Positions 9,728 through 31,350 of a stretch of 64,000 nucleotides of DNA are shown one piece after another. Positions within the stretch are counted from its first letter, which is position 1. Every line of letters starts with the position of its first letter. Under the pieces are notes generated by a model. The model was not told the origin of the DNA. It ran no database searches and was given only the letters and a program-made list of their open reading frames with translations. Origin of the DNA: Celeribacter persicus (GTDB lineage Bacteria; Pseudomonadota; Alphaproteobacteria; Rhodobacterales; Rhodobacteraceae). Location: NCBI RefSeq assembly GCF_003050785.1, contig NZ_QAOH01000017.1, forward strand, positions 1-64,000, given 5' to 3'. The position numbers were made by a program, and so were the translations under genes.

Positions 9728-10336
9728 TCAGGCGGGGGACAAGAGCCCTTCCTCTTTCAGAGCTTGCAGGACAGCCGGTCGTCCACCGATCCGCTGCGCG
9801 TATTCGACGAGCTTCGGCCAAGGAGACATGTCCATCTTGAGGAAGTTGCACCAACCGAGCACCGTGAAGAGATAGGCGTCGGCGACGGTGAAGCTGTCGC
9901 CGACAAGATAGCCGGCACTTCCAATGCGCTTCTCTGCTTCGGTCAGACGGTTGGCAGCCATTTTTTCGAAGAAAGGACGGGCTTCGACCGGCAGATCAGG
10001 ACGGAACAACGGCGCCATTGTCTTGTGAAGCTCTGTAGAGATGAAGTTCAGGGTTTCAAGAAGCTTCCAACGCTCATCTCCCGTCACCTTGCCGAGTTTT
10101 CCGTCTGCCTTGTCCGCAATGTATTGCAGCACAATGGCAGCCTCAGAGATCTTGGTCTCGCCATCGACGATGGTGGGGACCAGACCCAGTGGGTTGATCT
10201 TGCTATAGTCCTCACCATCGACCTTGTTTCCCGCCGGGTCCATCACGACCATTCGGCAAGTCGTGGGTATCTCCGCCTCCAGACAACTGATGTGAGCAGC
10301 CAACGAACAGGCCGCAGGTATGTAGTAGAGTTCCAT
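9728..10336 (-). CDS. Glutathione S-transferase family protein
   Basis: About 202 residues with an N-terminal thioredoxin-fold GST domain (MELYYIPAACSLAAH, the PGLVPT-like turn LGLVPTIVDG, and the SEA glutathione motif in KISEAAIVLQYI) and a C-terminal helical domain with GDSFTVADAYLFTVL. The start at ATG 10336 is preferred over an upstream GTG. The beta-class-like N-terminus resembles GSTs found in aromatic degradation operons of proteobacteria, where they are thought to detoxify reactive intermediates or dehalogenate. It is the last gene of the minus-strand run from 16494. The specific substrate is unknown. Confidence 0.85.
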   Translation of the reverse strand: MELYYIPAACSLAAHISCLEAEIPTTCRMVVMDPAGNKVDGEDYSKINPLGLVPTIVDGETKISEAAIVLQYIADKADGKLGKVTGDERWKLLETLNFISTELHKTMAPLFRPDLPVEARPFFEKMAANRLTEAEKRIGSAGYLVGDSFTVADAYLFTVLGWCNFLKMDMSPWPKLVEYAQRIGGRPAVLQALKEEGLLSPA

Positions 10337-10403
10337 TCTCACAGTGTTTCCTTCCTTTGTGTTTCAGCACAGGTACCCCGAAACTGCAGACGGAGTATAT
10401 GCC

Positions 10404-11066
10404 TCAGAAGCGCCAGACCAGACCGGTTCCGACAAGCAGAGGATCGAGCGTCGCACTACCTGTCGCTGACGGCCCGCCGACGCCCAATGTGCCCTTGACG
10501 TCGGCATCGAGCCAGATTTTCTTGACGTCGAAGTACATACCCATCCGCTCATTGATCATGCTTTCGAAACCGACCTGTAGAACGGCACCCCAAGCGTTTT
10601 CCGCCTCGAAGCCGGCCACATCTTGCCCTTCCGAATCAAGAATGATGGTATAGTTGATGCCCGCGCCGACATAGGGCTCGAACTTCGGATTACGGGTCGG
10701 AATGCGGTATTGGAGTGCGAGAATCGCAGGTGCGTAAGTCACATCCCCGAGATAGGCCCCAGCAAGGCTTCCTTCGCCGCGAATCTCTGCGGTAGGTGGG
10801 ATTCCGAATGTGAAGGTGGCGGAAATCTGCTCGTTGACGCGATAGCCGACATCGAAGCTCAACGAGTAGTTGTCGTCGACCGAAACATCGGCGCCCGGAA
10901 ATGGTTCACCTCCGACCGACAGTTCGGCACCGGGGCTGAAGAATATCCCCACGGGCCCCCCCCGGAGATACCAGCCGTTTTGGTCTGCATCCTGTGCTTG
11001 GGCAGCGCAAGTTTGGGCTAGAGCCAGACAAGCGCTGAGTGTTGCCGTATAGTAAGTTTTAAACAT
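10404..11066 (-). CDS. ompW: OmpW-family outer-membrane protein
   Basis: 220 residues with a signal peptide (MFKTYYTATLSACLALAQTCAAQAQ) and alternating beta-strand pattern ending in the outer-membrane signature LVWRF (C-terminal Phe). Motifs such as PAILALQYRI and KFEPYVGAGINYT are typical of the OmpW eight-stranded barrel. OmpW/AlkL relatives pass small hydrophobic molecules across the outer membrane and often sit in naphthalene or alkane clusters. It lies between the ferredoxin reductase and the GST, suggesting that it helps substrate entry. Confidence 0.9.
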   Translation of the reverse strand: MFKTYYTATLSACLALAQTCAAQAQDADQNGWYLRGGPVGIFFSPGAELSVGGEPFPGADVSVDDNYSLSFDVGYRVNEQISATFTFGIPPTAEIRGEGSLAGAYLGDVTYAPAILALQYRIPTRNPKFEPYVGAGINYTIILDSEGQDVAGFEAENAWGAVLQVGFESMINERMGMYFDVKKIWLDADVKGTLGVGGPSATGSATLDPLLVGTGLVWRF

Positions 11067-11142
11067 GTGTTTCCTCCCTATGTGTTGGACTTCTTGTTGA
11101 TGGCGTTGCCCAGGTCTTCGCCTGGTTGGGTATTCTTTGTGC

Positions 11143-12348
11143 TTACAGTAGCTTACGAAGGTCTGGTGCTGTGATCAGCGAGTCGTCAGTCACTGCGTAG
11201 CCCTTCGAGATGAGACGGCGAACGATCGCCATGTCGCGGGGCGCACCGAAACAGATGGCACCGACCAGCACATCGCCGATGACCGCGAAACGGGTGAACG
11301 ACCTTCCTTCGCCCTTCCGCACAAGTATAGTTCCCCCCTCTGGCTGGTTATCCCCGATCATCTGGATGTTGAGGTCGTATTGATCAGACCAGAACCAAGT
11401 GTTGATTGCATAGGGCTCCTTCTTCCCCAGCATGTTTCGTGCGGCGGCGGCGGCCTGGTCCTGCGCATTGGCCCAGGATTCCATCCGTGTCGGCTGGCCA
11501 TCGCCAACACGCATCGCCGCCACATCCCCGGCCGCGTAAATCAGCGGGTCGGACGTACGCAGAAATTCGTCAACGATGACACCATTGCCGGTCTCAAGGC
11601 CAGCCTCCCTCGCAATGGCATCATTAGCTATCGCGCCGATCCCGATAACGACCACGTCGACCGCCAGCATTTCCCCGTTTGATAGCGTCACGCTTTCAAC
11701 CTGATCCTCTCCGCCTACCGTCACGATCGAGGTATTCAAGTGGATCACGGTGCCATTGCTACGGTGGACAGCAGCCAAAGCGACGCCGACATCCGGTGGC
11801 AGACTGCGGGCGCAAAGCCGGTCGGCGAGTTCGACGACCACCGCTTCCATCCCGCTTTTTCGGGCTGTTGCTGCGACTTCAAGACCGATCCAACCCGCGC
11901 CAATCGACAAAAGCCGCTTTCCAGGCACCATTTGCGCGCGCAAACGCTCGGCATCAGCAATCGTACGCAGATAGAAAACATTGCCTTTGCCCTCGAAGGG
12001 GCCATCAAGCGTGCGGGCGCGACTACCGGTCGCGATCAGCAGGCGGTCATAGGGCAGGCTTGCTCCCGAGGAGAGCCGTACCACATGCGCGTCGCGGTCG
12101 ATTGCTTCGACGCGTTGGTTGAGCAGAAGGTCTATGCCAAGATTTTGCGCGGCCTCGGCGTTCAGCAAGCAAGTGCTCTGTGCGTCCGCCGCACCCTGAA
12201 GCACCGCCTTCGACAGCGGCGGTCGGTCATAAGGAAGGTGCCGTTCCTCCGAGAGGATCGTGACGGCGCCCTCGAAGCCTTCTGTTCGTAGCGTTTTCGC
12301 CGCGGTCACTGCAGCCAAGCCGCCGCCTATGATGATGATACGTTCCAT
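11143..12348 (-). CDS. FAD-dependent ferredoxin reductase (ring-dioxygenase or P450 electron transfer)
   Basis: 401 residues of the BphA4/TodA/putidaredoxin-reductase type. The FAD-binding GGGLAAVTAAKTLR is at residues 8-21, the HLPYDRPPLSK motif follows, a second Rossmann motif SIGAGWIGLEVAA binds NADH, and YAAGDVA closes the FAD site. It would pass electrons from NADH to the Rieske ferredoxin (28601) of the ring dioxygenase, to the [2Fe-2S] ferredoxin (16171), or to both. It is the only such reductase in the cluster, so sharing is likely but unproven. Confidence 0.9.
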   Translation of the reverse strand: MERIIIIGGGLAAVTAAKTLRTEGFEGAVTILSEERHLPYDRPPLSKAVLQGAADAQSTCLLNAEAAQNLGIDLLLNQRVEAIDRDAHVVRLSSGASLPYDRLLIATGSRARTLDGPFEGKGNVFYLRTIADAERLRAQMVPGKRLLSIGAGWIGLEVAATARKSGMEAVVVELADRLCARSLPPDVGVALAAVHRSNGTVIHLNTSIVTVGGEDQVESVTLSNGEMLAVDVVVIGIGAIANDAIAREAGLETGNGVIVDEFLRTSDPLIYAAGDVAAMRVGDGQPTRMESWANAQDQAAAAARNMLGKKEPYAINTWFWSDQYDLNIQMIGDNQPEGGTILVRKGEGRSFTRFAVIGDVLVGAICFGAPRDMAIVRRLISKGYAVTDDSLITAPDLRKLL

Positions 12349-12374
12349 CGGGGTCTTCCTCAGTCAATAATGCG

Positions 12375-12405
12375 GATGACGCGCAGACCTGTGCCGCGCG
12401 TCATC
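12375..12405. other. Intercistronic hairpin upstream of ferredoxin reductase
   Basis: GATGACGCGC and GCGCGTCATC form a perfect 10-bp stem with an 11-nt loop, between the extradiol dioxygenase and reductase genes. It has no T-tract, so a role in mRNA stability or processing is more likely than termination. Confidence 0.6.
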
Positions 12406-12448
12406 TGTTGATTACTTGTCCGCGCCTATGGCGCGTTCCTGTCCTGAG

Positions 12449-13354
12449 TTAGGAACCCACCTTGAAGCTCTCGGGGAACGGAGCCCCCCACGAGCTGAAG
12501 ATGCCCGGCTTGTCCGCGCTCCAGATGAACGGGCCTGCCTTGTGGTCCACACAACGCGGCATTTCCCCCGAAAGCTCATACCTGTTGCCATCCGGCGTGA
12601 AGAAATAGGAGTAGAGATTCGAGCCTACACCGTGCCGACCCGGGCCTGCTTCCGTCATGACCCCACCGCGTGCGACCTGATCGAGCATGAGCTTCATGTA
12701 TTCCATGTTCGGGATCGTCCATGCGAGATGGTCGAGCGTCTCATGCGGCGCGCCCGCAAACATTGCGACGTCATGGTGATAGTCGCCGACATGCATCCAG
12801 GCCGCAAGACGCCCTGCGCCTCCGGGGAACTCGACAATGTCAGAGGCATAGAAATCGACATGCTTGCGCAGGAATTCGATCGTCTGGGTCGCATCCGGAC
12901 CGACGCGCAGCGTGATATGGTCGAGGTCAAGCGGCGCCAGACCGCTCAGGTGGTTGGCCTTGCGAGCAGCCGGGTTATAGTAGTGCTTGCGCGCTTCGGA
13001 CCGCAGCAATGCAATCTGCATCTTCTGGTTCTGGGGCGGCAGATCGAATTCGATGATCTTCTCGACACCCGGATCGCAGTCCGTCATCTCCCGAACCTGG
13101 ACGCCGGCATCGGAAACCCGCTTGCTGTAGTGATTGAGGTCATCCTCATCATCCGCAGCGATCGCAAAGCTGATGACGCCGGTACCACCCTCGGTCACGG
13201 CCACATCGAAAGTTCCGTCGGTCCCGCAGGTCAGGTAAACAGTACCGTCTTGCCGAGCAATTTCCTCAAGCCCCAGTACAGTTGTGTGAAACCGCACCGA
13301 TTCCTCGAGGTTCTTAACCCGCAAGTGCGCGTGCGACAGTTTTTGAAGAGCCAT
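12449..13354 (-). CDS. Extradiol ring-cleavage dioxygenase (VOC superfamily)
   Basis: 301 residues with two vicinal-oxygen-chelate domains. The Fe(II) triad is visible in the C-terminal domain: His in LDHITLRV, His in LDHLAWTI and Glu in NRYELSGEM. It cleaves a catechol-type diol next to the hydroxyls. Its place next to a chromene-carboxylate isomerase and hydratase-aldolase implies a 1,2-dihydroxynaphthalene-like substrate (the NahC step), although the sequence does not look like classical Pseudomonas NahC and substrate assignment is inference. The start at ATG 13354 follows GGGGAGGAAT. Confidence 0.87.
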   Translation of the reverse strand: MALQKLSHAHLRVKNLEESVRFHTTVLGLEEIARQDGTVYLTCGTDGTFDVAVTEGGTGVISFAIAADDEDDLNHYSKRVSDAGVQVREMTDCDPGVEKIIEFDLPPQNQKMQIALLRSEARKHYYNPAARKANHLSGLAPLDLDHITLRVGPDATQTIEFLRKHVDFYASDIVEFPGGAGRLAAWMHVGDYHHDVAMFAGAPHETLDHLAWTIPNMEYMKLMLDQVARGGVMTEAGPGRHGVGSNLYSYFFTPDGNRYELSGEMPRCVDHKAGPFIWSADKPGIFSSWGAPFPESFKVGS

Positions 13355-13387
13355 ACTATTCCTCCCCTTGGATGGATGGCATTGATG

Positions 13388-13984
13388 TCAAAGCCCCTGT
13401 TGGAGCGTTCTTTCCATGAACATGAGGCGGTCGTTGCCCCACCACATCTGATCACCCACAATCATCGTGGGCGTACCAAACACACCTGCCTCATGCGCGG
13501 CCTGCGTGCTCGCCTCGTATTGGTCTGTAGCATCCTTCGATGAAACCCAAGCCGACAGAGCATCGGGATTCCAGCCGAACTGCTTCGCCAATTCATCCAG
13601 CAACGCCGGGTCAGCCAAGTCTGCACCCTTTCCCCAGACCCGGTCCCACGCAGTCCGGATGAAGGCTTCTCCCTCGCCTTTCGTCATTGCATAAAGAAAA
13701 GCCTTGTTGAGCTTCTCGGACGCGAGTGACTTCGGAAAGGTCAAAGGCAAACCATATTCCTCAGCCCAACGGTTGAGATCCTTGCTCAAATAGCGAATCT
13801 TCAACGGCAGGCTGACATTTGGTGGTGCGGTATTCCCCGCCATGAGTTTGAGTTGCGGCAGGTTCACGACATGGGGCCGAAACTCCAGACCGTATTGCTT
13901 GCAGATCCCCGGCACCTTGTGAAAGGCCAGATAAGCGAAGGGGCTCATGAAATCGAAGTAGAAGTCAAGATGCCGACTGGTCAC
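13388..13984 (-). CDS. 2-hydroxychromene-2-carboxylate isomerase (NahD-like)
   Basis: 198 residues of the kappa-class GST/DsbA-like isomerase family. The N-terminus [16 protein letters not shown] carries the catalytic Ser in the MSPF motif, and [20 protein letters not shown] is the typical C-terminal segment. The enzyme isomerises 2-hydroxychromene-2-carboxylate to trans-o-hydroxybenzylidenepyruvate with glutathione. It overlaps the hydratase-aldolase gene by 4 bp (ATGA), so the two are translationally coupled. Confidence 0.92.
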
Positions 13985-14976
13985 TTGCCGCTCTCCGTCT
14001 CAAGCTCCGCAGCGAGTTTTGCCCATTGACGCCCGGACTCGCGCGCGCCCTCCAGAGCCGTTGCGGGAACCAGGTGGTAGGGCGGACGGCAAGGTCCAGC
14101 GACCATCCAACCTGCCGCATCCATACGGGCCTTCTCGATGCCGATGTTATAGACCGAGAATTCCTTGAACGAGCCGTTGGGAAAGAGGGTCCGATAGGTG
14201 AAACCAATCCTGTCGGTCAGTTTTTTGGCTTGGGTCCAATCGCCAGTCTCTACCGCCTTGGCCACAAGGTCGCGAAGCTGGATCACAGGTGCTGGCCCGC
14301 AAACCGCGCCACTGGTCCAGAACGCCGTGCAGTGTTCGGGGTCGAGCCGGGCGGCGGCGTAATAGTCCACATCAAGCGGCATCAGTCGAATGCGGCGCTT
14401 GGTCAGGTTCAGGTCCGTATAGAGCGCTGCCGTGTTTATGTACTTGGCAGATACGATCTGCGGAATTTCGGAGATCTGCGCCCAGAAAGCACGCGGGAAC
14501 TCGAACTTGAATGCCTCGGGGTTGGCATATGCACAGATAGCCATGTCCGGGCACGCCTCGGCCACATCACGAAAGAACTGAACTGCTGTCGGCACATCAG
14601 GCTGAACCCACATCGGCGGCCCCATCATCACCCCGTTAAGCCCGATCTCGCGCGCGGCACGGGTCATGCTGATGGAGTCGCGGGTGTTAAGGGCGGTCGC
14701 CCCGCCGAAGATGGGAATGCGACCGCGACCGGCTTCGACCAGCGTGCGCATGAAGGCTTGCTTCTCTTGCCATGTTGTCGTGGCTCCCTCTCCCAGGGTG
14801 CCGAGAGAAAGAATCCCGTTCACACCAGAGGCGATCAGAGCCTCGACGACACGGGCCGTTTCGTCCAGATCGACCGTGTCTTCAGCGCGCGGATCCGACG
14901 CGTTGGGCTTGGACGGCGTGGGCATGATCGCCCAGCAACCTGTCACGTCATCGACCGTGAGCAGTTCATGTTTCAT
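13981..14976 (-). CDS. Hydratase-aldolase of the trans-o-hydroxybenzylidenepyruvate type (NahE/PhdJ-like)
   Basis: 331 residues of the dihydrodipicolinate synthase/N-acetylneuraminate lyase family, in the subgroup with NahE and PhdJ. Characteristic segments are [45 protein letters not shown], and the Schiff-base Lys in IVSAKYINT. It cleaves a benzylidenepyruvate to an aromatic aldehyde and pyruvate. With the isomerase downstream, salicylaldehyde (or a substituted form) is the likely product; the PhdJ reaction giving 2-carboxybenzaldehyde is the alternative. Confidence 0.92.
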
Positions 14977-15049: not shown

Positions 15050-15060
15050 GGACAGTGTCA

Positions 15061-16125
15061 CTATGCGCCGAGCGGAACCGCGTTTCCACGGTCTTCCCGC
15101 CAAAGCCCGAGTTTCTCCTGGCAGACGCGATCGGAGTAAGAGAACAGCACTGCATCGCCGTCCGCCTCATGCGTGACGGTATGCCAGCTCGGAACGACGA
15201 ACAGATCCTTCGGACCCCATTCGTAAGTCTTTCCATTGATCACACTGCGACCGGTGCCTTCAGTGACGACAAAGACCGTTGCGTCTGTCGACCGATACGG
15301 CCGCGACTTGAAGCCTTTCGGAAGCAGTTGAAGGCAGGGCGAAATCGTCGGCATCGCCCAGCCGCCGTCGACCGGGTTGACATAGCGCATCTTGATACCG
15401 TGGAAGGGGTCGACCTCACCCTGCTTCAAAAGATGCTCGAGGCCTTCGCGCGAGCGTTCGTAAGGGTAATTGAAGATCGGCGACGCTACTCTGGTCGCTT
15501 CGTAGTCGACCGGAAGCATGTTGGCACCGTAGCGCCAGCTGCTGTCTTCGGGCTGGCGGGTAATTGGCTGCTGATCCGCGTGATGCTCTTCTGCGAAAGA
15601 GGCGTCGAACACCGACACGATTGGAATATCCAGACCGTCGAGCCAGATCATCGGCGCGTCGCTGTCATTGCCGTGGTCGTGCCAGGCTCCCGGCGGAGTG
15701 ATTACGAAATCGCCAAAGTTCATCACTGTGCGCTCGCCATCGACCGACGTATGCGCACCACTGCCCTCCATCACGAAGCGCAAAGCTGACTGGCTGTGGC
15801 GGTGCGCGGGGGCAACTTCGCCCGGCAGGACGATCTGAAGGCCAGCGTAAAGCGACGTGGTAATCCGGGACTGACCGCGCAGGCCTGGATTTTCAAGCAC
15901 AAGGACGCGCCGCTCGGCTTCCTTCGCCGTGATCAGACCGCCTGCTTCCAGCAGGTAGGATTTCGCCTCGTCGAAATGCCAAAGGTGGGGCAAGCAACCG
16001 CTTTTGGGCTCAGGAGTGATGATGTTCGACAAAACAGTCCAAAGTGGGGTATAGGACCCGCTATCGATCTTGTCGTAGAACATCTTTCGTTCTGCTGTTT
16101 CCACAGGCTTTTCGGTCAGCGACAT
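15061..16125 (-). CDS. Gentisate 1,2-dioxygenase-like bicupin ring-cleavage enzyme
   Basis: 354 residues with two cupin domains. The first has the iron-binding HRHSQSALRFVMEG and HDHG motifs; the second has FVVTEGTGRSVINGK and SWHTVTHEA. This is the gentisate 1,2-dioxygenase / 1-hydroxy-2-naphthoate dioxygenase / salicylate 1,2-dioxygenase family. Because maleylpyruvate isomerase and fumarylpyruvate hydrolase genes are nearby, gentisate (giving maleylpyruvate) is the best guess. Direct cleavage of salicylate, known for one member of the family in Pseudaminobacter, is an alternative that would explain the lack of a salicylate 5-hydroxylase. The start follows GGAGGATAAAT. Confidence 0.88.
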   Translation of the reverse strand: MSLTEKPVETAERKMFYDKIDSGSYTPLWTVLSNIITPEPKSGCLPHLWHFDEAKSYLLEAGGLITAKEAERRVLVLENPGLRGQSRITTSLYAGLQIVLPGEVAPAHRHSQSALRFVMEGSGAHTSVDGERTVMNFGDFVITPPGAWHDHGNDSDAPMIWLDGLDIPIVSVFDASFAEEHHADQQPITRQPEDSSWRYGANMLPVDYEATRVASPIFNYPYERSREGLEHLLKQGEVDPFHGIKMRYVNPVDGGWAMPTISPCLQLLPKGFKSRPYRSTDATVFVVTEGTGRSVINGKTYEWGPKDLFVVPSWHTVTHEADGDAVLFSYSDRVCQEKLGLWREDRGNAVPLGA

Positions 16126-16170: not shown

Positions 16171-16494
16171 TCAGAACTGGAACTCTGGGGTGGTGACGGT
16201 GAGACCATCAAGATCTGCTGTCAGGCGAATCTGGCAAGCAAGCCGGCTGCTGTCCTGCCTGTTGGCCGCAAACTCCAACATACTGGCTTCACCTTCGCTG
16301 GTCGGCGGAAGCAGAGAAAGCCACTTGGGGTCAACATAGACCTGACAGGTCGCGCATGCGCAAGCGCCGCCACAATCCGCATCAATTCCCGGCACGCCAG
16401 CCATCGTCGCAGCCTCCATCAGAGACTGCCCCTCGCGCGACGATACATCACGTCGCTCTCCCATCGAATCAATGAACACCACTTGGATCGACAT
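16171..16494 (-). CDS. [2Fe-2S] ferredoxin, adrenodoxin/putidaredoxin type
   Basis: 107 residues (MSIQVVFIDSMG...). Cluster ligands are Cys41, Cys47 and Cys50 (pattern C-x5-C-x2-C) and a fourth Cys near residue 87 in LACQIRL. This class passes electrons from an FAD reductase to a cytochrome P450, and a P450 is present at 18408. It is the first gene of the minus-strand operon that ends with the GST, 45 bp upstream of the bicupin dioxygenase. Confidence 0.92.
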   Translation of the reverse strand: MSIQVVFIDSMGERRDVSSREGQSLMEAATMAGVPGIDADCGGACACATCQVYVDPKWLSLLPPTSEGEASMLEFAANRQDSSRLACQIRLTADLDGLTVTTPEFQF

Positions 16495-16877: not shown

Positions 16878-17402
16878 ATGAAAGATGATACCGAGCGGAG
16901 ACCGCCCGAAACCCTAGGTGGCGACGCCGATTTTCGGATCATTAAGGACCATCCCGCGCATCTGATTCGGCGTAGCTACCAAGTCTTCTTGTGTGCCTTC
17001 GACGAGGCTATGGCTGGCCTGCCGTTGTCGCCTGTGAGCTGGATCATTATCGCAACAGTGCGAAATTTCCCGAGCCTGTCCGTGACTGAAGTTGCCCGGC
17101 GCGCCGCAATAGACAAGGCGAGCTGTGGACGAACTGCAAGCGCGCTTGAGAAGCGCGGGCTGCTTTCGATCAAGAAGAGTGATACGGATGGCAGAGAGAA
17201 ACTGCTCGACATCACCCCTGCTGGCGAGGAATTGTACGGCAAGGCGTTTATTCAGGTCATGAAGCTGAAGTCGCTGCTCTTGGATGAAATTGATCCAGAG
17301 GTGCAGCGTCAGTTCCTGACTTCCATGGCAGCGTTTGTTTATGCAACACGCAAGAACACACGACCGTCAATTCCGACCGCACGTGACGCCGACATGGATT
17401 GA
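16878..17402 (+). CDS. MarR-family transcriptional regulator
   Basis: 174 residues with the winged-helix core of MarR (LSVTEVARRAAIDKASCGRTASALEKRGLL as recognition region, followed by the wing around SDTDGREKLLDITPAG). MarR proteins usually repress and are released by aromatic acids. It is divergent from the ferredoxin-dioxygenase operon and convergent with an FAH-family gene, so it is the obvious local regulator of the catabolic island. The ligand is unknown; salicylate or gentisate would be typical. Confidence 0.9.
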   Translation: MKDDTERRPPETLGGDADFRIIKDHPAHLIRRSYQVFLCAFDEAMAGLPLSPVSWIIIATVRNFPSLSVTEVARRAAIDKASCGRTASALEKRGLLSIKKSDTDGREKLLDITPAGEELYGKAFIQVMKLKSLLLDEIDPEVQRQFLTSMAAFVYATRKNTRPSIPTARDADMD

Positions 17403-17460: not shown

Positions 17461-18318
17461 TCAGGTGACGTCGATTTCCATCGAGCCGATCCGGTCGATC
17501 CAGGCATGGATCTTGTTGCCCGGCTCAATCTGCCCGACGCCCTCGGGCGTCCCGGTGAAGATGACGTCGCCCACTTCCAGTGTATAGAATCGGCTGGCCA
17601 TCTCGATCAGTTCCGGCACGCTCAGCACAAGATCACGCGTATTGGCCTTCTGCCTGGTGACGCCGTCCACCTTCAGTTCGAAGTCGAGCTGGGACGGATC
17701 GGTGATTTCATCGGCTGTTACAAGCCACGGTCCCAGCACCGAATAGCTGTCTATGGACTTGCGCATGCTGCGTTCCTCGGCGCCGCGCACCGTCATGTCA
17801 AGCCCGATCGCATATCCTGCGACGTACTCCAGCGCGCGCTCCGCTGACACCCTGTCGGCGCGTTTGCCGATGATGACCGCAAGTTCGATTTCGTGATCGC
17901 TGCGCCGATCAGGGAAGCGCAGTGTCACCGGCTCGGAGGGGCCGATAAGACTGCTGGTAGCCTTCAGAAACAGGCCGGTCTCGTGGATCACCCGCACTTG
18001 GGCTGCATTGCCCTGGTGCAGATCCTTCTGCGCGCGCGCCTCTTCCAGGTGCTTGACGTAGTTCACAGGCGCCGCGACAAGCTTGCCGGGGTTTGCAACC
18101 GGTGAATCGAAGGCCAGTTCACGGACTGGTCTGCGCTCTCCGGTCCTGGCAGCCACAAGGAATGCCTCCTTGAGCTGATCGAGATGTGCGATCAACGGGT
18201 CATGCCGCGGCAACGGGTAGCGCAGTTGCGGCAAAAGGTCGAGGGCCGAGGTGACATCGACAACCTCATCGTCCTGAACAAGACCGATACGGTCCTTGTG
18301 GAAGCGACAAATCTTCAT
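17461..18318 (-). CDS. Fumarylacetoacetate hydrolase-family protein (acylpyruvate-type hydrolase)
   Basis: 285 residues of the FAH superfamily: N-terminal cap followed by the hydrolase domain with APVNYVKHLEEA, the metal-binding acidic cluster in DHEIELAVIIGK, GYAIGLDMTVRGAEERSM and the FTGTPEGVGQIEPG signature. The family hydrolyses C-C bonds of acylpyruvates, or decarboxylates and isomerises related ring-cleavage products. A second, different FAH protein is at 22639. One of the two is probably fumarylpyruvate hydrolase; this one might act on maleylpyruvate, a methylated analogue, or a meta-cleavage product. Confidence 0.85.
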   Translation of the reverse strand: MKICRFHKDRIGLVQDDEVVDVTSALDLLPQLRYPLPRHDPLIAHLDQLKEAFLVAARTGERRPVRELAFDSPVANPGKLVAAPVNYVKHLEEARAQKDLHQGNAAQVRVIHETGLFLKATSSLIGPSEPVTLRFPDRRSDHEIELAVIIGKRADRVSAERALEYVAGYAIGLDMTVRGAEERSMRKSIDSYSVLGPWLVTADEITDPSQLDFELKVDGVTRQKANTRDLVLSVPELIEMASRFYTLEVGDVIFTGTPEGVGQIEPGNKIHAWIDRIGSMEIDVT

Positions 18319-23408: not shown

Positions 23409-25349
23409 TCATGTCGGCACTATCGCCCTGCGCAGAAACCGAAGTGCCACCATGATTGCGACACCCAGGCCATGGAGCATGAGGGTGTATCCGCCACCCA
23501 ATGCTTCCGGCATAAGAAGCAGCACTCCGCCAAAGCCCAGAGCTGCGCGTTCGTAGCCTGACAACATGCCCCCGAACCAGCCAACCATGGCGGCGGATAT
23601 GGCATAAACCCCAATTGCCGCAGCAGACGTGGCCAGAAAGATTTCAACCGGGGTTCCCTGCATCAGCAGGGCGGGCGAGACCACGAAGATGAAGGGAATG
23701 ATGTAGGCTGTCCAGCCTAGCCGCATCGCAACGAATGCTGTCTGCATCGGCGGGGCCCCGGCCAGCGCGGCGGCAAAGAAGGCGCCGATGCCGACAGGCG
23801 GGGTCACCATTGACATCATGCCGAGGTAGAAGATGAAGAAATGGGCGGCCATCGGTGTGATCCCGGCCTCTACCAGAGGCGGGGTAAGAAGGACCGCCAG
23901 CAAAAGATAGACGGCAACCGTCGGCATCCCCATGCCAAGAACAACACTGGCAATGGCCGTGAGGAGCAAGAGCAGCGGAAGGCTGCCCCGACCGATCTCG
24001 GCCAGCGCGAACGTGCCGGCAAAGCCCAACCCGGTGATGTTGAGAACACCGATGATGAAGCCGGCGGCAGCGGCGATCATCAGGATCTCGGTCATGGAGA
24101 TGCCGGCTTCGGCGAGCGATTGCCAGATCATGCGCAGAGTGATGCGCCGGCCACCATAGCCGTATGCGACGCCGCAGATCAGGGCAACGCCGGCCGCCCA
24201 GAGGGCCGCCGTTTCCGGTCGCTGGCCCAGCCAGAACATGCCGACCACGATCACTGCAAACGGCAGGATGAAGATACCCCCGCGACGCAGAGTGTCGAGC
24301 GCAGAAGGAATTTCATCCTCACGCAGGGGGGCGATGTTGGCCTTGGCGGCCTCAAGATCAACCTGACAGTACACCGCAAAGTAATAGAGCGCGGCCGGGA
24401 TGATCGCTGCAATCGCGACCTGCGCATAGGAAACGCCCAGGAAATCGGCCATAAGGAAAGCGACTGCGCCCATGACCGGGGGGGCGATCTGCCCTCCGGT
24501 CGAGGCGACGGCCTCGACTGCGGCAGCCATCCGGGGCCGATATCCCGAGCGGATCATCAGCCGGATGGTGACGACGCCGGTCGCGACGATGTTGGACACC
24601 ACAACCCCGGAGATCGTGCCGAAAAGCGTCGAGGCCAGGATCGAGATCTTGGCCGCTCCGCCGCGGCGGCGCCCCAGCGCGGCAAGCGCGATGTCGTTGA
24701 AGAACTCGCCCCCCCCCGCCCGCACGAGGATCTGCCCGAACAGCACGAACGCGGCGACGACCGTTACCGACACGTTCATGGTAAGGCCGAGCATGCCATT
24801 GGCATCGAACCCGATATAGGAAAGCAGACGATCCGGTGAGACCTGCCGCGTTTGCATCGCACCCTGAATCATGTGGCCGATCATCCCGTAGCCCCCGATG
24901 AAAAGCACCACCACGACGAGCGCCCAGCCCACCACCCGCCGCAGCCCCTCAAGCACCAGCAGGACAAGCATCCCGGACATGATCACGATATCGACCGGGG
25001 CGGACATCACCCGCGAGACGATATCGGCATAGTTTATGGCAACATATAGCGAAAGACCAAGCCCCAGGACGGCAAGAATCCAGTCGATGGTTCTACCACC
25101 GTCCGCCGGAACATTCTCGTCGCTGCCGCGTGGATCCTTCTCGCCGACGCTGCTTCTGTCGATCAGGAACACCAGGCCCAGCCCAAGCCCCAGGGCGACG
25201 GCCAATATCTGCTCGACATAGACGCTCAGCCCGAGGCGGCTCGGCGCGTCGAACCCCACAGCGACGGCCAGCAGCGAAAGTGCCACCGCCTGGGTTTGGA
25301 CGGCAATCCGACGAAATGTTGGCAGCCGACTGCCAGTTGTCTGAGTCAA
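23409..25349 (-). CDS. TRAP transporter fused permease (TAXI type, DctQM fusion)
   Basis: About 646 residues, almost entirely membrane helices, fusing the small (DctQ) and large (DctM) TRAP permease subunits as is normal for TAXI systems. Motifs include GQIAPPVMGAVAFLMADFLG and LGMGMPTVAVYLLLAVL. No ATG is near the 5' end; a TTG at 25349 sits 8 nt after GGAGG and is the likely start. It pairs with the solute-binding protein gene 81 bp upstream. Uptake of an aromatic or dicarboxylic acid linked to the island is probable. Confidence 0.9.
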   Translation of the reverse strand: MTQTTGSRLPTFRRIAVQTQAVALSLLAVAVGFDAPSRLGLSVYVEQILAVALGLGLGLVFLIDRSSVGEKDPRGSDENVPADGGRTIDWILAVLGLGLSLYVAINYADIVSRVMSAPVDIVIMSGMLVLLVLEGLRRVVGWALVVVVLFIGGYGMIGHMIQGAMQTRQVSPDRLLSYIGFDANGMLGLTMNVSVTVVAAFVLFGQILVRAGGGEFFNDIALAALGRRRGGAAKISILASTLFGTISGVVVSNIVATGVVTIRLMIRSGYRPRMAAAVEAVASTGGQIAPPVMGAVAFLMADFLGVSYAQVAIAAIIPAALYYFAVYCQVDLEAAKANIAPLREDEIPSALDTLRRGGIFILPFAVIVVGMFWLGQRPETAALWAAGVALICGVAYGYGGRRITLRMIWQSLAEAGISMTEILMIAAAAGFIIGVLNITGLGFAGTFALAEIGRGSLPLLLLLTAIASVVLGMGMPTVAVYLLLAVLLTPPLVEAGITPMAAHFFIFYLGMMSMVTPPVGIGAFFAAALAGAPPMQTAFVAMRLGWTAYIIPFIFVVSPALLMQGTPVEIFLATSAAAIGVYAISAAMVGWFGGMLSGYERAALGFGGVLLLMPEALGGGYTLMLHGLGVAIMVALRFLRRAIVPT

Positions 25350-25430: not shown

Positions 25431-26402
25431 TCAGTCAACAGCGCGAATGGCGACGCCCCGCTCGGCGAAGAAGGCCGCTGCACCAGGGTGATATTCCACA
25501 CCCGGATAATCGACATAGGCGGTTTCAATGTTCATCACGCGAAGCGGAGGATAGGCATCGCCGATCGCACCCACATTGTCGAAAATCGAGGCCAGCAGCG
25601 CCTTGACCTGTTCGTCGGACACATGCTCACCAGCAACAAGGACGTTGTCCCATGTCAGCATCATCATCGGCGCATCGACACCCACCCGCACCGGCGAGGG
25701 CGTCACCTCTGAGAAGTAATAGGCCGGGCGAAACTTGCGAATCGTTTCGAGCGCCTGCTCATCCGAGGCGACCTGAAGATAGCGGACCCCGCCCACCATT
25801 GCGCCGACCTCAGCGACCTTCGGCCCGCCGACAGCGAAGAAGGCCGCATCCGTCAGACCCGAGGCCAGAGCATCGACATTGCGAATGATATCGGGGATCG
25901 GCACTTCAACCACTTCACCATAGCTGATCCCGTCCGCCTCGAGAAGCGCACTCACCAGCGGACGGTTCAGCGGGAAAGCCTCCCAGCCCGAGGGCACACG
26001 CTTTCCGGCAAGATCGGAGACCCGCGTCATGCCGGAATCTGCCCGGACGAACAGCCCTACCGCAAAGGGATTGATCTTGGCCACAACACGCAGATTCGGC
26101 AGAGCCGCCGAGTAGTCACCCTCCCCGGCGACCGCTACGATCATGTCATTGATGTCGGTCATCGTGAATTCGGCGTCTTTGCTGTCGACGGCCTGAAGCA
26201 TCTGCGCGTTGCCGCTATATGCCTGAACAACCAGCCGCCCGCCGCCGCTTTTCTGGGCCTCGGCCGCAATGACCGAAGCCATCGTATTCCACACCGAACC
26301 CGCAGGAGGTGTCGTGATCGATGTAACCTGTGCGGAGGCACCGCCAGCCGCCGTCACTGCAAATACCATCGCGCCAAAAACGCGCGTCAAAAACATCCTC
26401 AT
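25431..26402 (-). CDS. TAXI-family TRAP solute-binding protein
   Basis: About 323 residues, with a signal peptide (MRMFLTRVFGAMVFAVTAAGGASA) for the periplasm. TAXI family traits include ITTPPAGSVWNTMASVIAAE near the N-terminus and a ligand-binding core around AGKRVPSGW. The start at ATG 26402 follows GGGGCGAGAAG. It is divergent from the ring-hydroxylating dioxygenase operon across a 180-bp shared regulatory region. Confidence 0.9.
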   Translation of the reverse strand: MRMFLTRVFGAMVFAVTAAGGASAQVTSITTPPAGSVWNTMASVIAAEAQKSGGGRLVVQAYSGNAQMLQAVDSKDAEFTMTDINDMIVAVAGEGDYSAALPNLRVVAKINPFAVGLFVRADSGMTRVSDLAGKRVPSGWEAFPLNRPLVSALLEADGISYGEVVEVPIPDIIRNVDALASGLTDAAFFAVGGPKVAEVGAMVGGVRYLQVASDEQALETIRKFRPAYYFSEVTPSPVRVGVDAPMMMLTWDNVLVAGEHVSDEQVKALLASIFDNVGAIGDAYPPLRVMNIETAYVDYPGVEYHPGAAAFFAERGVAIRAVD

Positions 26403-26463
26403 CTTCTCGCCCCCTATGCTGAACTCGCTCCTCCGCAAGCGCTTCTTCTTACCAGTTACGGCC

Positions 26464-26492: not shown

Positions 26493-26581
26493 CAGCGGCC
26501 CCGCAAAGCGGTAACACTCCTTCCCACGCGTCTGCGAGGAGCTGGTGCGGCGGAAATCGATTCCAGAGGGAGGAGCCTACG

Positions 26582-27946
26582 ATGAACGTAAAGGCAAATG
26601 TTGGCGCGACGGGCGCTTATTCTGATGCCGAAATTCTTGCAATGATTGACGAGAAGAACGGCAAGTACGACCCTAAGATCTATGTTGACGAGGCTCTTTA
26701 TCGTCTTGAGCTTGAGCGCATTTTTGCGCGCACCTGGATTTGCATGGGTCACGAATCGCAGATCCCGAAGCCGGGCGACTTCACGACCGCCTACATTGGC
26801 GAGGATCCTGTGGTCGTTGTGCGCCAGAAGGACGCCAGCATCCGGGTGTTCCTAAACCAGTGCCAGCACCGCGGAATGAGGATCTGCCGGGCCGATTCGG
26901 GCAACGCTAAGTCCTTTACATGTACCTACCATGGTTGGGCATACAATCAGGGTGGCGATCTGGTAAGCGTCCCGATGGAGAAGGAAGCCTTCGGTGGTTG
27001 CCTGAACAAGGCGGAGTGGGGACCGAAGCAGGCGCGCGTCGAAACCTACAAGGGCCTGATTTTTGCCAACTGGGACGCCGACGCGCCTCCGCTCGACGAA
27101 TACCTGGGTGACGTCAAATTCTATATGGACATTATGCTCGACCGCTGTGAGGAGGGGACCGAGGCGATCCCCGGCATCCAGAAGTGGGTCATTCCCTGCA
27201 ACTGGAAGTTCGCGGCAGAGCAGTTCGCTTCGGACGCTTATCATGCAGGCACCACCTCACACCTGTCCGGCATCATGGCCGGTGTGCCGGAAGATGTGGA
27301 TATTACCCAGGTTGCCCCTCCGACGGAGGGCTTGAATGTCCATTTGGAGAACGGCCATGGTTGCGGCCTCTTCTTGCGCAACCCGATGTTCTACATGACT
27401 ATTGTTGGGCCGAAGGTGACGGAATACCTGACGACCGGGCCAGCATACGAGGAGGCAGTGCGGCGTTTGGGTCAGGGACGAGCGGACGTGAACCTTTGCC
27501 ATACCAACGTCTTCCCGAACCTGTCGTTCCTGGCAGGGATCAACACGGTCCGGATGTGGCAGCCTCGCGGTCCGAACGAGATCGAGGTCTGGACCTTCAC
27601 TCTCGTTGACAAAACTGCCCCGCAGGAGATCAAGGATGAATGGCGTCGCCATACATCGCGCACTTTCTCGGCGGGCGGCGTGTTCGAGCAGGATGATGGC
27701 GAAAACTGGTGCGACATCCAGCAAGTGCTGCGCGGCCATGTTGCCCAAAACCAGAAGTTCAACATCGAGATGGGCTCGCATACAGTGACGGCCGATAATC
27801 CTGAGGGCTTCCCCGGGCTGAGCTTCGCCTACACCTATAGTGAGGAGTCGGCGCGAGGCGTGTACCGTTATTGGACGCAGATCATGACCGCACCGGATTG
27901 GGATGCAATCCGCCGGATCGAGCAACGGCCGCTCGCGGCAGAGTAA
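26582..27946 (+). CDS. Ring-hydroxylating dioxygenase, alpha subunit (biphenyl/toluene type)
   Basis: 454 residues. The Rieske [2Fe-2S] ligands are in CQHRGM and CTYHGW (about residues 100-125), and the mononuclear iron site is DAYHAGTTSH, with His-x5-His spacing as in biphenyl/toluene dioxygenases rather than the x4 spacing of Pseudomonas naphthalene dioxygenase. QKWVIPCNWKFAAEQF, HPRGPNE-like QPRGPNEIEVW and VFEQDDGENW are also BphA1-like. It inserts O2 as a cis-diol into an aromatic ring. It leads an operon with beta, ferredoxin, dehydrogenase and aldehyde dehydrogenase genes. The start follows GAGGGAGGAG. Confidence 0.94.
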   Translation: MNVKANVGATGAYSDAEILAMIDEKNGKYDPKIYVDEALYRLELERIFARTWICMGHESQIPKPGDFTTAYIGEDPVVVVRQKDASIRVFLNQCQHRGMRICRADSGNAKSFTCTYHGWAYNQGGDLVSVPMEKEAFGGCLNKAEWGPKQARVETYKGLIFANWDADAPPLDEYLGDVKFYMDIMLDRCEEGTEAIPGIQKWVIPCNWKFAAEQFASDAYHAGTTSHLSGIMAGVPEDVDITQVAPPTEGLNVHLENGHGCGLFLRNPMFYMTIVGPKVTEYLTTGPAYEEAVRRLGQGRADVNLCHTNVFPNLSFLAGINTVRMWQPRGPNEIEVWTFTLVDKTAPQEIKDEWRRHTSRTFSAGGVFEQDDGENWCDIQQVLRGHVAQNQKFNIEMGSHTVTADNPEGFPGLSFAYTYSEESARGVYRYWTQIMTAPDWDAIRRIEQRPLAAE

Positions 27947-27984
27947 CGTTCAATCGGCGGCAAATGTCCGCTTATGTATCAAAC

Positions 27985-28008
27985 GTCTGCCGATACGCCT
28001 CGGCAGAC
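27985..28008. other. Intercistronic hairpin between dioxygenase alpha and beta genes
   Basis: GTCTGCCGA and TCGGCAGAC form a perfect 9-bp stem with a 6-nt loop, 38 bp after the alpha stop and 24 bp before the beta start. There is no T-tract; it could tune the alpha to beta mRNA ratio. Confidence 0.6.
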
Positions 28009-28032
28009 ACTTTACGATGAGGGAGGAATAAG

Positions 28033-28906
<874 letters not shown>

Positions 28907-28937
28907 AAAACAGCGTCAAAAACAGGGAGGAATTACA

Positions 28938-29771
28938 ATGCAACTCAAGGATCAAGTCGCGCTCGTGACGGGCGGAGGGTCCGGTCTTGGACTCGCCATC
29001 GTGGAACGCTTCGTCGAGGAAGGCGCACGTGTTGCAATCTTTGACCGCTCGCAAGAGCGCATCGACGACGCGGTGAAAGCGTTTGGCGACAAGGTCGTCG
29101 GCATCGCGGGCGACGTTCGCAAAGTGGACGACAACAATCGGGCGGTGGCCGAGTGCGTCAGCGCCTTCGGCAAGCTCGACACGTTCGTCGGAAATGCGGG
29201 CATCTGGGACTACTCGAAAACCATGGTCTCGACAGAAGATGACGAACTGTCATCTGCTTTCGACGAGATGTTCGCCATCAACGTCAAGGGCTATGTCCTT
29301 GGAGCCAAGGCGGCATTGCCAGAGCTTTACAAGACCAAGGGCCACATGATCTTTACCGCGTCGAACGCTGCCTTTTATCCAGGCGGTGGCGGTGTTCTTT
29401 ACACGGCAACGAAGCATGCGGTGGTCGGCATGATCAAGCAGATGGCGCATGAATTTGCACCGCACGTACGGGTCAATGGCGTCGCGCCAGGTGGTATCGG
29501 TGGCAGCAACCTCGCCGGAACCAGTGCCCTTTCGCAAGAGGGAATCAAGTTTTCCGATATTCCGCTCGACGACCTGATGAAGCAAATGCTGCCGCTTGAA
29601 CGTGCATTCAATGCGCGGGAATATGCTGGCGCCTACGCCTTCTTCGCCAATCGTCGCGACAATACGCCGGGCACTGGTGCCGTACTGAATTTCGACGGCG
29701 GTATCGGCATGCGGGGCTTTGGGTCTCCGAATATGGGCGCAGAGCTCGTTGCAAAGTTCGGCGCAATTTAA
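28938..29771 (+). CDS. cis-dihydrodiol dehydrogenase (short-chain dehydrogenase)
   Basis: 277 residues. The NAD-binding motif is TGGGSGLGLA (residues 11-20), NAGIWD follows, and the catalytic Ser/Tyr/Lys are in TASNAAF and YTATKHA. The C-terminal NFDGGIGMRGF is characteristic of BphB/NahB-type cis-dihydrodiol dehydrogenases. It restores aromaticity, giving the diol for extradiol cleavage. The ATG at 28938 follows AGGGAGGAAT. Confidence 0.92.
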   Translation: MQLKDQVALVTGGGSGLGLAIVERFVEEGARVAIFDRSQERIDDAVKAFGDKVVGIAGDVRKVDDNNRAVAECVSAFGKLDTFVGNAGIWDYSKTMVSTEDDELSSAFDEMFAINVKGYVLGAKAALPELYKTKGHMIFTASNAAFYPGGGGVLYTATKHAVVGMIKQMAHEFAPHVRVNGVAPGGIGGSNLAGTSALSQEGIKFSDIPLDDLMKQMLPLERAFNAREYAGAYAFFANRRDNTPGTGAVLNFDGGIGMRGFGSPNMGAELVAKFGAI

Positions 29772-29779
29772 CCATAGCC

Positions 29780-29804
29780 GTGCGCACGGATAGGCCGTGC
29801 GCAC
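29780..29804. other. Intercistronic hairpin before the aldehyde dehydrogenase gene
   Basis: GTGCGCACGG and CCGTGCGCAC are perfect complements around a 5-nt loop, just after the dehydrogenase stop. Without a T-tract it is more likely an mRNA-stabilising or processing element than a terminator. Confidence 0.6.
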
Positions 29805-29898
29805 AGTTGAAACTGGGTCGTTCTCTGGACGAATCCTCGCGAGGCTTTTGGCTGACGCAGGTTTCAAGAACAGAGAAGTAAACTTAAGAGGACATGGA

Positions 29899-31350
29899 AT
29901 GACTATTCAGCTCTATATCGACAATGAGGCGCAGAATGCCACAGGCAACGCCACATTTGAACGCCGCTCACCTGTAAGTGGCGAAGTCGTGACGCGTGGC
30001 GCAGCTGCCACGCCAGGGGATGCCGTGGCCGCGATCGAATCTGCCGAACGCGCCTTTGCGTCCTGGTCGCAGACTGGTCCGGGCCATCGCCGCGCCCTGC
30101 TCATGAAGGCCGCGGAAGAGATCGAAAAGCGCACGGAAGATTTCGTTGTCGCCATGAAAGCCGAAGTCGGGGCAGGCGAACTCTGGGCACGCTTCAATGT
30201 CATGCTCGCGGCGAATGTTTTCCGCGAAGCCGCAGCGATGACCACGCAGATTCAGGGCAGCACTATCCCGTCTGACAAGCCGGGCACGTTGTCGATGACC
30301 GTGAGACAGCCGGTAGGTGTGATCCTGTCGATCGTGCCTTGGAACGGGCCGATTGTGCTGGCAGCGCGGGCCATTGCCTATCCGCTGATGTGCGGCAACA
30401 CCGTTGTTTTCCGCGCCTCGGAAACCTCTCCCAAGACCCATGTGCTGGTTGCTGAGGCCGTCCATGCGGCCGGTTTTCCCGCAGGAACGCTCAACTTCGT
30501 GATCAACGACCCAAAGGACGCACCCGAAGTCGTAGAGGCAATGATCGCGCATCCAGCCGTGCGGCGTGTCAACTTCACCGGTTCGACGCATGTTGGCCGG
30601 ATCATTGCTGCGGCTTGTGGCCGCCATCTCAAGCGTAGCCTGATGGAACTCGGCGACAAGTCCCCCATGGTGGTCCTCGCGGATGCGGATATCGACGGCG
30701 CAGTGAATGCGACCATCTTCGGTGCCTTCCTCTATCAGGGCCAGATCTGCATGACGACAGAGCGTGCCATCGTCGATGAGTCTGTCGCCGATGCGTTCGT
30801 CGAGAAACTCGCCGCGCGGGCAGCACAGCTGGAGGCGGGCGATCCACGCACTCAGGCGGCTTGCGCGCTTGGTCCGATCATCAGCCAGGGCGCAGTTAAT
30901 CACCTGAACGGTTTGCTTGCCGACGCGACCGAAAAAGGTGCGAAGATACGGACTGGCGGGCTTGCAGACAGCACCCTGATGTCGCCGACTGTGCTCGATG
31001 GTGTCACATCCAAGATGCGCATCTACTCCGAGGAAGCCTTTGGTCCGATCTTGCAGGTGATCCGTGTCAACGGCGCGGACGAAGCTGTTCGGGTGGCCAA
31101 TGACACTGAATACGGCCTGTCTGCTGCTGTCTTCGGGACAGACATGGTCCACGCACTTGATGTCGCAATGCGCCTTCAGACGGGTTCAGTGCACATCAAC
31201 GGCTCCACCGTCTCGAATGAAGCCCAAGCGCCTTATGGCGGCACGAAGGCCAGCGGTTGGGGCCAGTTCGACAGCACTGCGGTGATTGATGAATTCACCG
31301 AGCTGAAGTGGATTACGATCGAACAGCCGTCCCAACAGTATCCCCTGTAA
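29899..31350 (+). CDS. Aldehyde dehydrogenase, salicylaldehyde dehydrogenase-like
   Basis: 483 residues of the NAD-dependent ALDH superfamily. SIVPWNGPIVLAAR is the cofactor region, LMELGDKSPMVVLADADID holds the general-base Glu, and FLYQGQICMTTER the nucleophilic Cys. These blocks resemble NahF/DoxF salicylaldehyde dehydrogenases. It would oxidise the aldehyde from the hydratase-aldolase to salicylate. The start at ATG 29899 follows AAGAGG. It is last in the dioxygenase operon. Confidence 0.88.
   Translation: MTIQLYIDNEAQNATGNATFERRSPVSGEVVTRGAAATPGDAVAAIESAERAFASWSQTGPGHRRALLMKAAEEIEKRTEDFVVAMKAEVGAGELWARFNVMLAANVFREAAAMTTQIQGSTIPSDKPGTLSMTVRQPVGVILSIVPWNGPIVLAARAIAYPLMCGNTVVFRASETSPKTHVLVAEAVHAAGFPAGTLNFVINDPKDAPEVVEAMIAHPAVRRVNFTGSTHVGRIIAAACGRHLKRSLMELGDKSPMVVLADADIDGAVNATIFGAFLYQGQICMTTERAIVDESVADAFVEKLAARAAQLEAGDPRTQAACALGPIISQGAVNHLNGLLADATEKGAKIRTGGLADSTLMSPTVLDGVTSKMRIYSEEAFGPILQVIRVNGADEAVRVANDTEYGLSAAVFGTDMVHALDVAMRLQTGSVHINGSTVSNEAQAPYGGTKASGWGQFDSTAVIDEFTELKWITIEQPSQQYPL

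Follow-up and report, generated by a model that had tools for sequence, protein, structure and literature searches.

Among the gene clusters for the degradation of polycyclic aromatic hydrocarbons (PAHs), type B is that of Roseobacteraceae and Rhizobiaceae, beside type A of Sagittula and type C of Celeribacter indicus P73; the criterion for membership in one type is a dioxygenase more than 93% identical when both subunits, large and small, are concatenated (Abe et al. 2024, PMC11705938). In Table 1 of that paper, which lists the type A cluster of Sagittula sp. MA-2, 8 of the 21 entries are marked as having no relation to known enzymes of aromatic degradation. A cytochrome P450 and a 2Fe-2S ferredoxin belong to these eight, as do an HMG-CoA lyase and a CoA-transferase; the paper gives none of the four a role and calls the route below salicylate unknown. 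Here we analyze a 64,000-nucleotide stretch of Celeribacter persicus (positions 1 to 64,000 of contig NZ_QAOH01000017.1, assembly GCF_003050785.1; hereafter, the window) that carries an aromatic catabolic cluster at positions 9,728 to 31,350. Compared with the published description, this cluster is a further copy of type B, and its gene context indicates that the P450, together with the 2Fe-2S ferredoxin, is probably a salicylate 5-hydroxylase that makes gentisate.

The cluster aligns with the copies of Actibacterium, Thioclava and Salipiger as one collinear block of 97-98% DNA identity, its gene order and orientation match those of the named type B strains, and apart from a few percent of sequence there is no material difference in a shared set of genes. 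The copy of Neorhizobium is 86-91% identical and contains a transketolase-like gene and transposase genes between the ferredoxin and MarR genes. The dioxygenase alpha subunit is 96.4% identical to that of Actibacterium and 90.5% identical to that of Neorhizobium petrolearium, the latter value being calculated over an over-long open reading frame (ORF). All 21 entries of Table 1, as published for type A (PMC11705938), have a counterpart in the window; in the type A cluster, on plasmid p6 of MA-2, the P450 gene likewise adjoins the HbzF gene and the ferredoxin gene adjoins that of gentisate 1,2-dioxygenase (GDO), whereas the gene order differs and the 20 proteins compared are 49-75% identical. 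A search of 394 genomes of the family with the alpha subunit (E ≤ 1 × 10−150) yielded one match, in C. persicus itself; this draw missed the other known carriers and, because it spans 393 genera, says little about frequency within genera.

The original prediction, made from the DNA letters alone, described a mosaic island in two divergent blocks whose layout departs from the classical nah, phn and bph arrangements. The layout does differ from these three, but we reject its novelty, because the same layout occurs in named type B strains and has been published (PMC11705938). What was called a mosaic is a conserved cluster, present as a collinear block in the listed type B strains and the annotated Actibacterium plasmid and identical to the described one in gene content and gene order; no enzyme-level characterization of type B enzymes was found in the portions of the literature examined. 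The number of blocks is three plus a regulator, given that the minus-strand genes fall into two blocks separated by the divergent MarR gene. The prediction made no mention of the P450 and the 2Fe-2S ferredoxin, nor of the pair of HMG-CoA lyase and CoA-transferase or the second FAA hydrolase.

Scans of the translations of 20 ORFs against NCBIfam and Pfam, supplemented with further Pfam scans and motif checks, recovered in their places all the parts that it did name. These include the naphthalene-type isomerase and hydratase-aldolase, a gentisate lower route with GDO and homologues of NagL and NagK, and the transporter (TRAP/TAXI) and porin (OmpW) genes. That the replicon is a plasmid, as had been supposed, follows from the repABC genes at 53004-56755 together with a gene for a VirB4-like protein at 6550-8892 (Pfam scans of the window). 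Measured in 2-kb windows, the G+C content of the cluster is about 55-60%, but 61-64% at about 20-26 kb; elsewhere in the window it is mostly 60-65%, with lower values near 33-36 and 51-56 kb. Judged from its predicted genes, the cluster would be a plasmid-borne, horizontally moved unit for the catabolism of naphthalene-class aromatics, its main route, backed by homology, being almost certain, and the same cluster is present in strains reported as naphthalene or phenanthrene degraders in Table 2 of Abe et al. (PMC11705938).

The predicted route would begin with the biphenyl-type dioxygenase, its Rieske ferredoxin and the FAD reductase, which would produce a cis-diol; the BphB-type dehydrogenase would then form 1,2-dihydroxynaphthalene, the extradiol enzyme would open the ring, and NahD, NahE and the aldehyde dehydrogenase would lead to salicylate. 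Salicylate would be hydroxylated at C5 to gentisate by the P450, with electrons supplied via the putidaredoxin-like ferredoxin, after which GDO would open the ring and NagL and NagK would yield fumarate and pyruvate. The alpha subunit contains the Rieske motif C-x-H-x17-C-x2-H and the iron motif D-x2-H-x5-H, the His-x5-His spacing of which we take to be a mark of biphenyl/toluene-type enzymes. With beta subunit, Rieske ferredoxin and FAD reductase also encoded, the full composition of a biphenyl/toluene-type Rieske dioxygenase is present, in line with the biphenyl-type dioxygenase of the original prediction. The extradiol enzyme is closer to catechol 2,3-dioxygenase (150 bits, cut-off 320) than to BphC (52 bits), and the NahE-like protein is 61% identical to homologues from the naphthalene clusters of Paraburkholderia aromaticivorans BN5 and Sphingobium JS3065. 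The aldehyde dehydrogenase reached the cut-off of no listed NCBIfam model; its position and its type A homologue, annotated as NahF by Abe et al., suggest the NahF role on salicylaldehyde. The cluster encodes one FAD reductase, which probably serves the Rieske dioxygenase and, we infer, the P450 ferredoxin as well.

The P450 contains the heme-thiolate signature F-x2-G-x-H-x-C-x-G (identified by eye) and the ExxR motif, and would belong to a class I (putidaredoxin-type) system. The 2Fe-2S ferredoxin, distinct from the Rieske ferredoxin, is of the putidaredoxin/adrenodoxin type, the class that serves P450s, and its gene lies directly upstream of the GDO gene in both types A and B. To quantify linkage, we considered only loci longer than 8 kb, those of 8 kb or less being dropped. 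A GDO homologue occurs within 12 kb of all 6 distinct P450s that are at least 45% identical to the window P450 (98, 98, 91, 65, 57 and 49%) and of none of the 63 that are below 45% (Fisher's test with near-identical copies collapsed to four contexts, p = 1.3 × 10−6; the loci are not independent and the flank lengths vary). Without the length filter, there are 95 loci below 45%, of which none has a GDO, one has a ferredoxin match and one has an HbzF match.

Phylogenetic analysis of 40 of the 74 aligned P450s (the six GDO-linked proteins and the 34 nearest others; midpoint root) placed the six in a single clade (support 100/99) that was recovered in 200 of 200 bootstrap trees. Twenty-nine alignment positions, some of them in the gap-rich ends, are invariant in these six and rare (<15%) in the 68 others. 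On plasmids the clade has a sharp boundary: among the best 20 of the 1,306 plasmid matches of the P450, five are more than 48% identical and the other 15 are at 32-35%; when the P450s of genome G362 and of Pseudonocardia were used as queries, the same five records appeared among the matches listed, followed by a drop to 37%. Of the 390 genomes of the order, 94 match the P450 at E ≤ 1 × 10−60, four, including that of C. persicus, at 58% identity or more and the rest at 39% or less, and at E ≤ 1 × 10−95 C. persicus was the only match among 385 genomes of the class and among 398 of the phylum.

Two members of the clade come from different surroundings. On two near-identical Pseudonocardia plasmids, the P450 gene overlaps a GDO-like gene by 4 bp, genes for a reductase and for the transport of aromatic acids come next, and no upper-pathway gene was found within the 31-32 kb stretch. 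In genome G362, the genes around those of the ferredoxin (51%) and the P450 (57%) encode an ABC transporter, a GDO-like protein, an FAA hydrolase and a MarR regulator, and no upper-pathway gene was found within the 20 kb stretch. With a P450 and a GDO-like gene present but no upper-pathway genes in the stretches of these two contexts, we do not favor a role of the P450 as an upper-pathway PAH monooxygenase. Further support for the gentisate-forming role comes from a related gentisate module in Antarctobacter, in which a flavin 3-hydroxybenzoate 6-monooxygenase takes the place of the P450. Sagittula MA-2, a carrier of the P450, is reported to grow on salicylate and gentisate (PMC11705938).

Several observations weigh against the assignment of the P450 to salicylate. 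The GDO-linked clade comprises no more than about four contexts that are independent, and L071, L106 and others were flagged in the tree as long branches of unsure placement. In G362, the GDO-like gene is located about 6 kb from the P450, beyond the ABC transporter, and five dioxygenase alpha subunits are encoded elsewhere in the genome, so that an upper pathway at another site is possible. Compared with the window GDO, the GDO-like protein of G362 is 34% identical (232 bits) and that of Pseudonocardia 38% identical (272 bits); both score below the GDO cut-off of 442 and may take another acid. MA-2 has a second locus that combines a cupin with an FAD monooxygenase, and its chromosome carries an annotated salicylate 1-hydroxylase that Abe et al. 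invoke for the 1-hydroxy-2-naphthoate step (PMC11705938). In the genome of C. persicus itself, five of the ten strong FAD-monooxygenase matches and a dioxygenase alpha subunit on contig C2 remain as other candidates.

These candidates bear on the possibility that salicylate is converted to gentisate (or catechol) by an enzyme encoded elsewhere in the genome, the P450 acting, for example, on 1-hydroxy-2-naphthoate or on alkyl side chains. Apart from the ten FAD_binding_3 matches, this explanation can draw on the C2 dioxygenase, which lies near a reductase-like gene and an SDR gene, and on an sdgC-like gene named for Neorhizobium Rsf11 in another paper. Against it, none of the five FAD monooxygenases that were classified, including one 3-hydroxybenzoate 6-monooxygenase (3HB6H) and one MhpA-like protein, reached the salicylate 1-monooxygenase cut-off (best listed score 214, cut-off 446), the 3HB6H of Martelella AD-3 is described as inactive on salicylate, and relatives of the P450 occur together with GDO-like genes in two contexts that have no upper PAH pathway in the stretch. 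The genome encodes three dioxygenase alpha subunits, namely that of the window, one that resembles BenA (722 bits against a cut-off of 781) and the unassigned one on C2; a NagGH-type second alpha/beta pair was not found in the cluster, the window having one alpha subunit. For the salicylyl-CoA 5-hydroxylase route, no AMP-binding or FAD_binding_3 match was detected among the cluster proteins. On balance, other salicylate routes in this genome appear less likely, and the combination of such a route with a different P450 substrate seems to us unlikely.

Direct cleavage of salicylate or 1-hydroxy-2-naphthoate by the GDO would dispense with 5-hydroxylation and make the P450 accessory. Cleavage of 1-hydroxy-2-naphthoate by the MA-2 GDO was proposed on the basis of docking and 26.3% identity to PhdI (Abe et al., PMC11705938), and the atypical GDO of Pseudaminobacter salicylatoxidans reportedly also accepts salicylates and 1-hydroxy-2-naphthoate. 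However, the window GDO scores far above the equivalog cut-off (562 vs. 442 bits) and is encoded together with homologues of NagL and NagK, the enzymes that act after gentisate cleavage, and the conserved position of the P450-type ferredoxin gene directly upstream of it points in the same direction; we consider direct cleavage improbable. Equally low is our confidence that the P450 makes gentisate from a different acid, such as 3-hydroxybenzoate or benzoate. Its slot is held by a 3HB6H in Antarctobacter, and the Pseudonocardia and G362 contexts do not reveal the substrate, but salicylate is the end product of the upper pathway in the window, and for 3-hydroxybenzoate C. persicus already possesses a 3HB6H-NagK-NagL-GDO cluster on its chromosome. 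The surroundings of GDO elsewhere can be seen in nine plasmid loci that carry a homologue (7 kb on each side, PLSDB annotation): 6 of the 9 have an annotated 3HB6H or FAD monooxygenase nearby, 2 have naphthalene-type genes, the Massilia locus has neither, and a P450 is annotated in none.

The CoA-transferase and the HMG-CoA-lyase-like enzyme suggest a second branch for the salvage of citramalate or D-malate, for which, on gene context, we regard the chances as evenly balanced. In this branch, the HbzF-type hydrolase would act directly to release maleate or citraconate, which would be hydrated, perhaps by the housekeeping LeuCD of the host, activated by the CoA-transferase and cleaved in a retro-Claisen reaction by the lyase; such a branch would suit methylated substrates. 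The lyase contains the HMG-CoA lyase signature with GGCPYAPGASGN, and we propose that its predicted activity is that of an (R)-citramalyl-CoA lyase; the Chloroflexus enzyme of this name presumably belongs to the HMG-CoA lyase family. The HbzF, CoA-transferase and lyase genes are neighbors in type A and contiguous in Antarctobacter, and in type B the P450 gene separates the HbzF gene from those of the CoA-transferase and the lyase. On plasmid pl4 of Sphingobium AntQ-1, the CoA-transferase (57%) and lyase (57%) genes head an operon of overlapping genes that continues with leuC and leuD, with GDO (43%) and HbzF (58%) homologues at a separate site of the same plasmid. The four genes are also together in Sphingobium MI1205, with no GDO match in the stretch, and in an Advenella plasmid leuD is flanked on one side by a GDO-like gene (32%) and on the other by an HbzF homologue (56%). 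These leuC/leuD contexts suit a sequence in which maleate or citraconate is hydrated, CoA is transferred and a retro-Claisen cleavage follows.

Other findings argue against this branch. NagL and NagK already suffice for gentisate, and no leuCD-like gene was found within the cluster, the genome at large not having been searched. Four family genomes have relatives of the lyase (48-53%) with no GDO nearby, one of the stretches ending at a contig end; a CoA-transferase homologue is present in all four, adjacent and 59% identical in one (L154), and at a distance of 3-5 kb with 40-42% identity in the other three. The lyase (contig C17, 19779-20687) is the sole full-length self-match in its genome, the three others being partial and weak (best E = 2.5 × 10−7), so that a housekeeping role is possible. 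We do not favor an ordinary leucine-degradation enzyme, because the clusters of both types, like the Antarctobacter module, have the lyase together with HbzF and a CoA-transferase.

For types A and B taken together, we lean slightly towards a salicylate 5-hydroxylase of a new kind, namely a class I P450 served by a putidaredoxin-like ferredoxin of its own, which would found a family of gentisate-making P450s that extends to Pseudonocardia and would be paired with a CoA-dependent citramalate/malate salvage (HbzF, CoA-transferase and HMG-CoA-lyase-like enzyme) for alkylated gentisates. Neither an assignment of the P450 as a salicylate 5-hydroxylase nor a prior statement of the CoA-transferase/lyase salvage was found in the parts of the open-licence literature examined, and both role proposals, drawn from gene context, appear to be new here. 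The P450 and the 2Fe-2S ferredoxin, as well as the HMG-CoA lyase and the CoA-transferase, would receive specific roles from this context, within a cluster that appears to be a mobile unit through which marine bacteria acquire the ability to grow on petroleum aromatics. Known enzymes that convert salicylate to gentisate include the Rieske oxygenase NagGH and the flavin salicylyl-CoA hydroxylase; if the assignment is true, the P450 joins them and becomes a marker gene for PAH degraders that use the gentisate route.

Table 1. Genes of the cluster in the window, with coordinates, strand and the matches on which each assignment is based (identities in percent are between proteins).
Gene product	Position	Strand	Basis
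Glutathione S-transferase (GstA-like)	9728..10336	-	GstA 159 bits, below cut-off 198; start from Actibacterium annotation
OmpW-family outer membrane porin	10404..11066	-	82 bits
FAD ferredoxin reductase, HcaD type	11143..12348	-	HcaD 372 bits, below cut-off 450
Extradiol ring-cleavage dioxygenase, catechol-2,3-dioxygenase-like	12449..13354	-	TIGR03211 150 bits, below cut-off 320; BphC model 52 bits
NahD-type 2-hydroxychromene-2-carboxylate isomerase	13388..13984	-	DSBA 172 bits; 39-41% to naphthalene-cluster homologues
NahE-type hydratase-aldolase	13981..14976	-	DHDPS 83 bits; 61% to naphthalene-cluster homologues
Gentisate 1,2-dioxygenase (GDO)	15061..16125	-	TIGR02272 562 bits, cut-off 442
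Putidaredoxin/adrenodoxin-type [2Fe-2S] ferredoxin, proposed P450 partner	16171..16494	-	Ferredoxin VI 1.4 × 10−30, putidaredoxin 5.5 × 10−22; C-x5-C-x2-C
MarR-family regulator	16878..17402	+	NCBIfam/Pfam scans
FAA-hydrolase family, HbzF-type maleylpyruvate hydrolase	17461..18318	-	178 bits; named after 70-71% type A homologue (Abe et al., Table 1)
Cytochrome P450, proposed salicylate 5-hydroxylase	18408..19652	-	108 bits; GDO linkage; clade
HMG-CoA-lyase-family enzyme, proposed (R)-citramalyl/malyl-CoA lyase	19779..20687	-	277.5 bits, cut-off 246; context
Class III CoA-transferase	20684..21928	-	349 bits; 4-bp overlap with lyase gene
NagL-type maleylpyruvate isomerase	21995..22642	-	TIGR01262 263 bits, cut-off 171
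NagK-type fumarylpyruvate hydrolase	22639..23349	-	FAA_hydrolase 215 bits
TRAP transporter fused permease	23409..25349	-	539 bits, cut-off 321
TAXI-family TRAP solute-binding protein	25431..26417	-	125 bits, cut-off 84
Ring-hydroxylating dioxygenase alpha subunit, biphenyl/toluene type	26582..27946	+	Family scans; motifs; 64% to Rhodococcus BphA1
Ring-hydroxylating dioxygenase beta subunit	28033..28590	+	NCBIfam/Pfam scans
Rieske ferredoxin of dioxygenase	28601..28906	+	75 bits
cis-Dihydrodiol dehydrogenase, BphB/HcaB type	28938..29771	+	BphB_TodD 387.5 bits, below cut-off 460; PRK06200 364 bits, cut-off 330
Aldehyde dehydrogenase	29899..31350	+	487 bits; 70% to type A homologue

A transketolase/E1-like gene (31858-34245, minus strand) adjoins the cluster and is also found inside the Neorhizobium copy; in genome G1273 (L157 2978-6555), the gene of a 72% homologue overlaps that of a CoA-transferase, with an HMG-CoA lyase gene about 3 kb downstream, and the transketolase/E1-like gene may be functionally tied to the CoA-transferase/HMG-CoA lyase pair. 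Genes for a Tn3 transposase, the IS21 helper IstB and a TniQ/Mu-type transposase (3697-6588, 35310-36206 and 59417-62802) surround the cluster and the repABC set, which fits repeated movement, and the plasmid also encodes a large Strawberry-notch-like helicase with a neighboring Toprim/DUF7146 protein (44199-49684). The second, chromosomal gentisate cluster of C. persicus (L130, contig C1, 8184-11922) comprises a 3HB6H above its NCBIfam cut-off, homologues of NagK and NagL (70-71%) and a GDO homologue (37%). Another locus of this genome (L129, contig C23) resembles by eye a nicotinate-degradation cluster (hydrolase, flavin reductase and FAD monooxygenase), the monooxygenase reaching the cut-off of no listed named family. 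In Sagittula MA-2 p3 (L139 9995-13259) and in P11 (L138 9995-13259), a cupin 45% identical to the window GDO is encoded with a 550-amino-acid FAD monooxygenase and an RraA-like gene, and this shared locus is possibly another aromatic-acid locus of MA-2.

Comparison with systems other than types A and B shows partial resemblance in each case. The biphenyl system of Rhodococcus shares the dioxygenase type (64% identity of the alpha subunit to BphA1, His-x5-His) along with the Rieske ferredoxin and FAD reductase; however, BphD-type hydrolysis is a step of the biphenyl pathway, whereas the window couples the dioxygenase to a naphthalene-type isomerase and aldolase. The nag operon of Cupriavidus (Ralstonia) U2 also leads from naphthalene via salicylate and gentisate and has the NagIKL functions. 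The genes nagG and nagH together encode salicylate 5-hydroxylase. Both are present in the nag operon of Delftia, which is reported as nearly identical to the U2 operon, whereas the window has one dioxygenase alpha subunit. A second operon, of P450, reductase, ferredoxin, GDO2 and FPH2 genes, is found in the Delftia genome and on pWWU2; its P450 is given no role in the section examined (PMC10146988, section 15), and in gene content it parallels the arrangement in the window. Plasmid pSMS3-3 of Antarctobacter heliothermus has a row of genes for HbzF (56%), CoA-transferase (54%), HMG-CoA lyase (55%), 3HB6H and GDO (65%), plus TAXI and TRAP genes (TRAP/TAXI 43 and 25%); within this module, no NagL was detected, and the HbzF-type gene was the sole match of NagK. 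Where the window has the P450 and its ferredoxin, pSMS3-3 has the flavin 3-hydroxybenzoate 6-monooxygenase (538 vs. a cut-off of 459).

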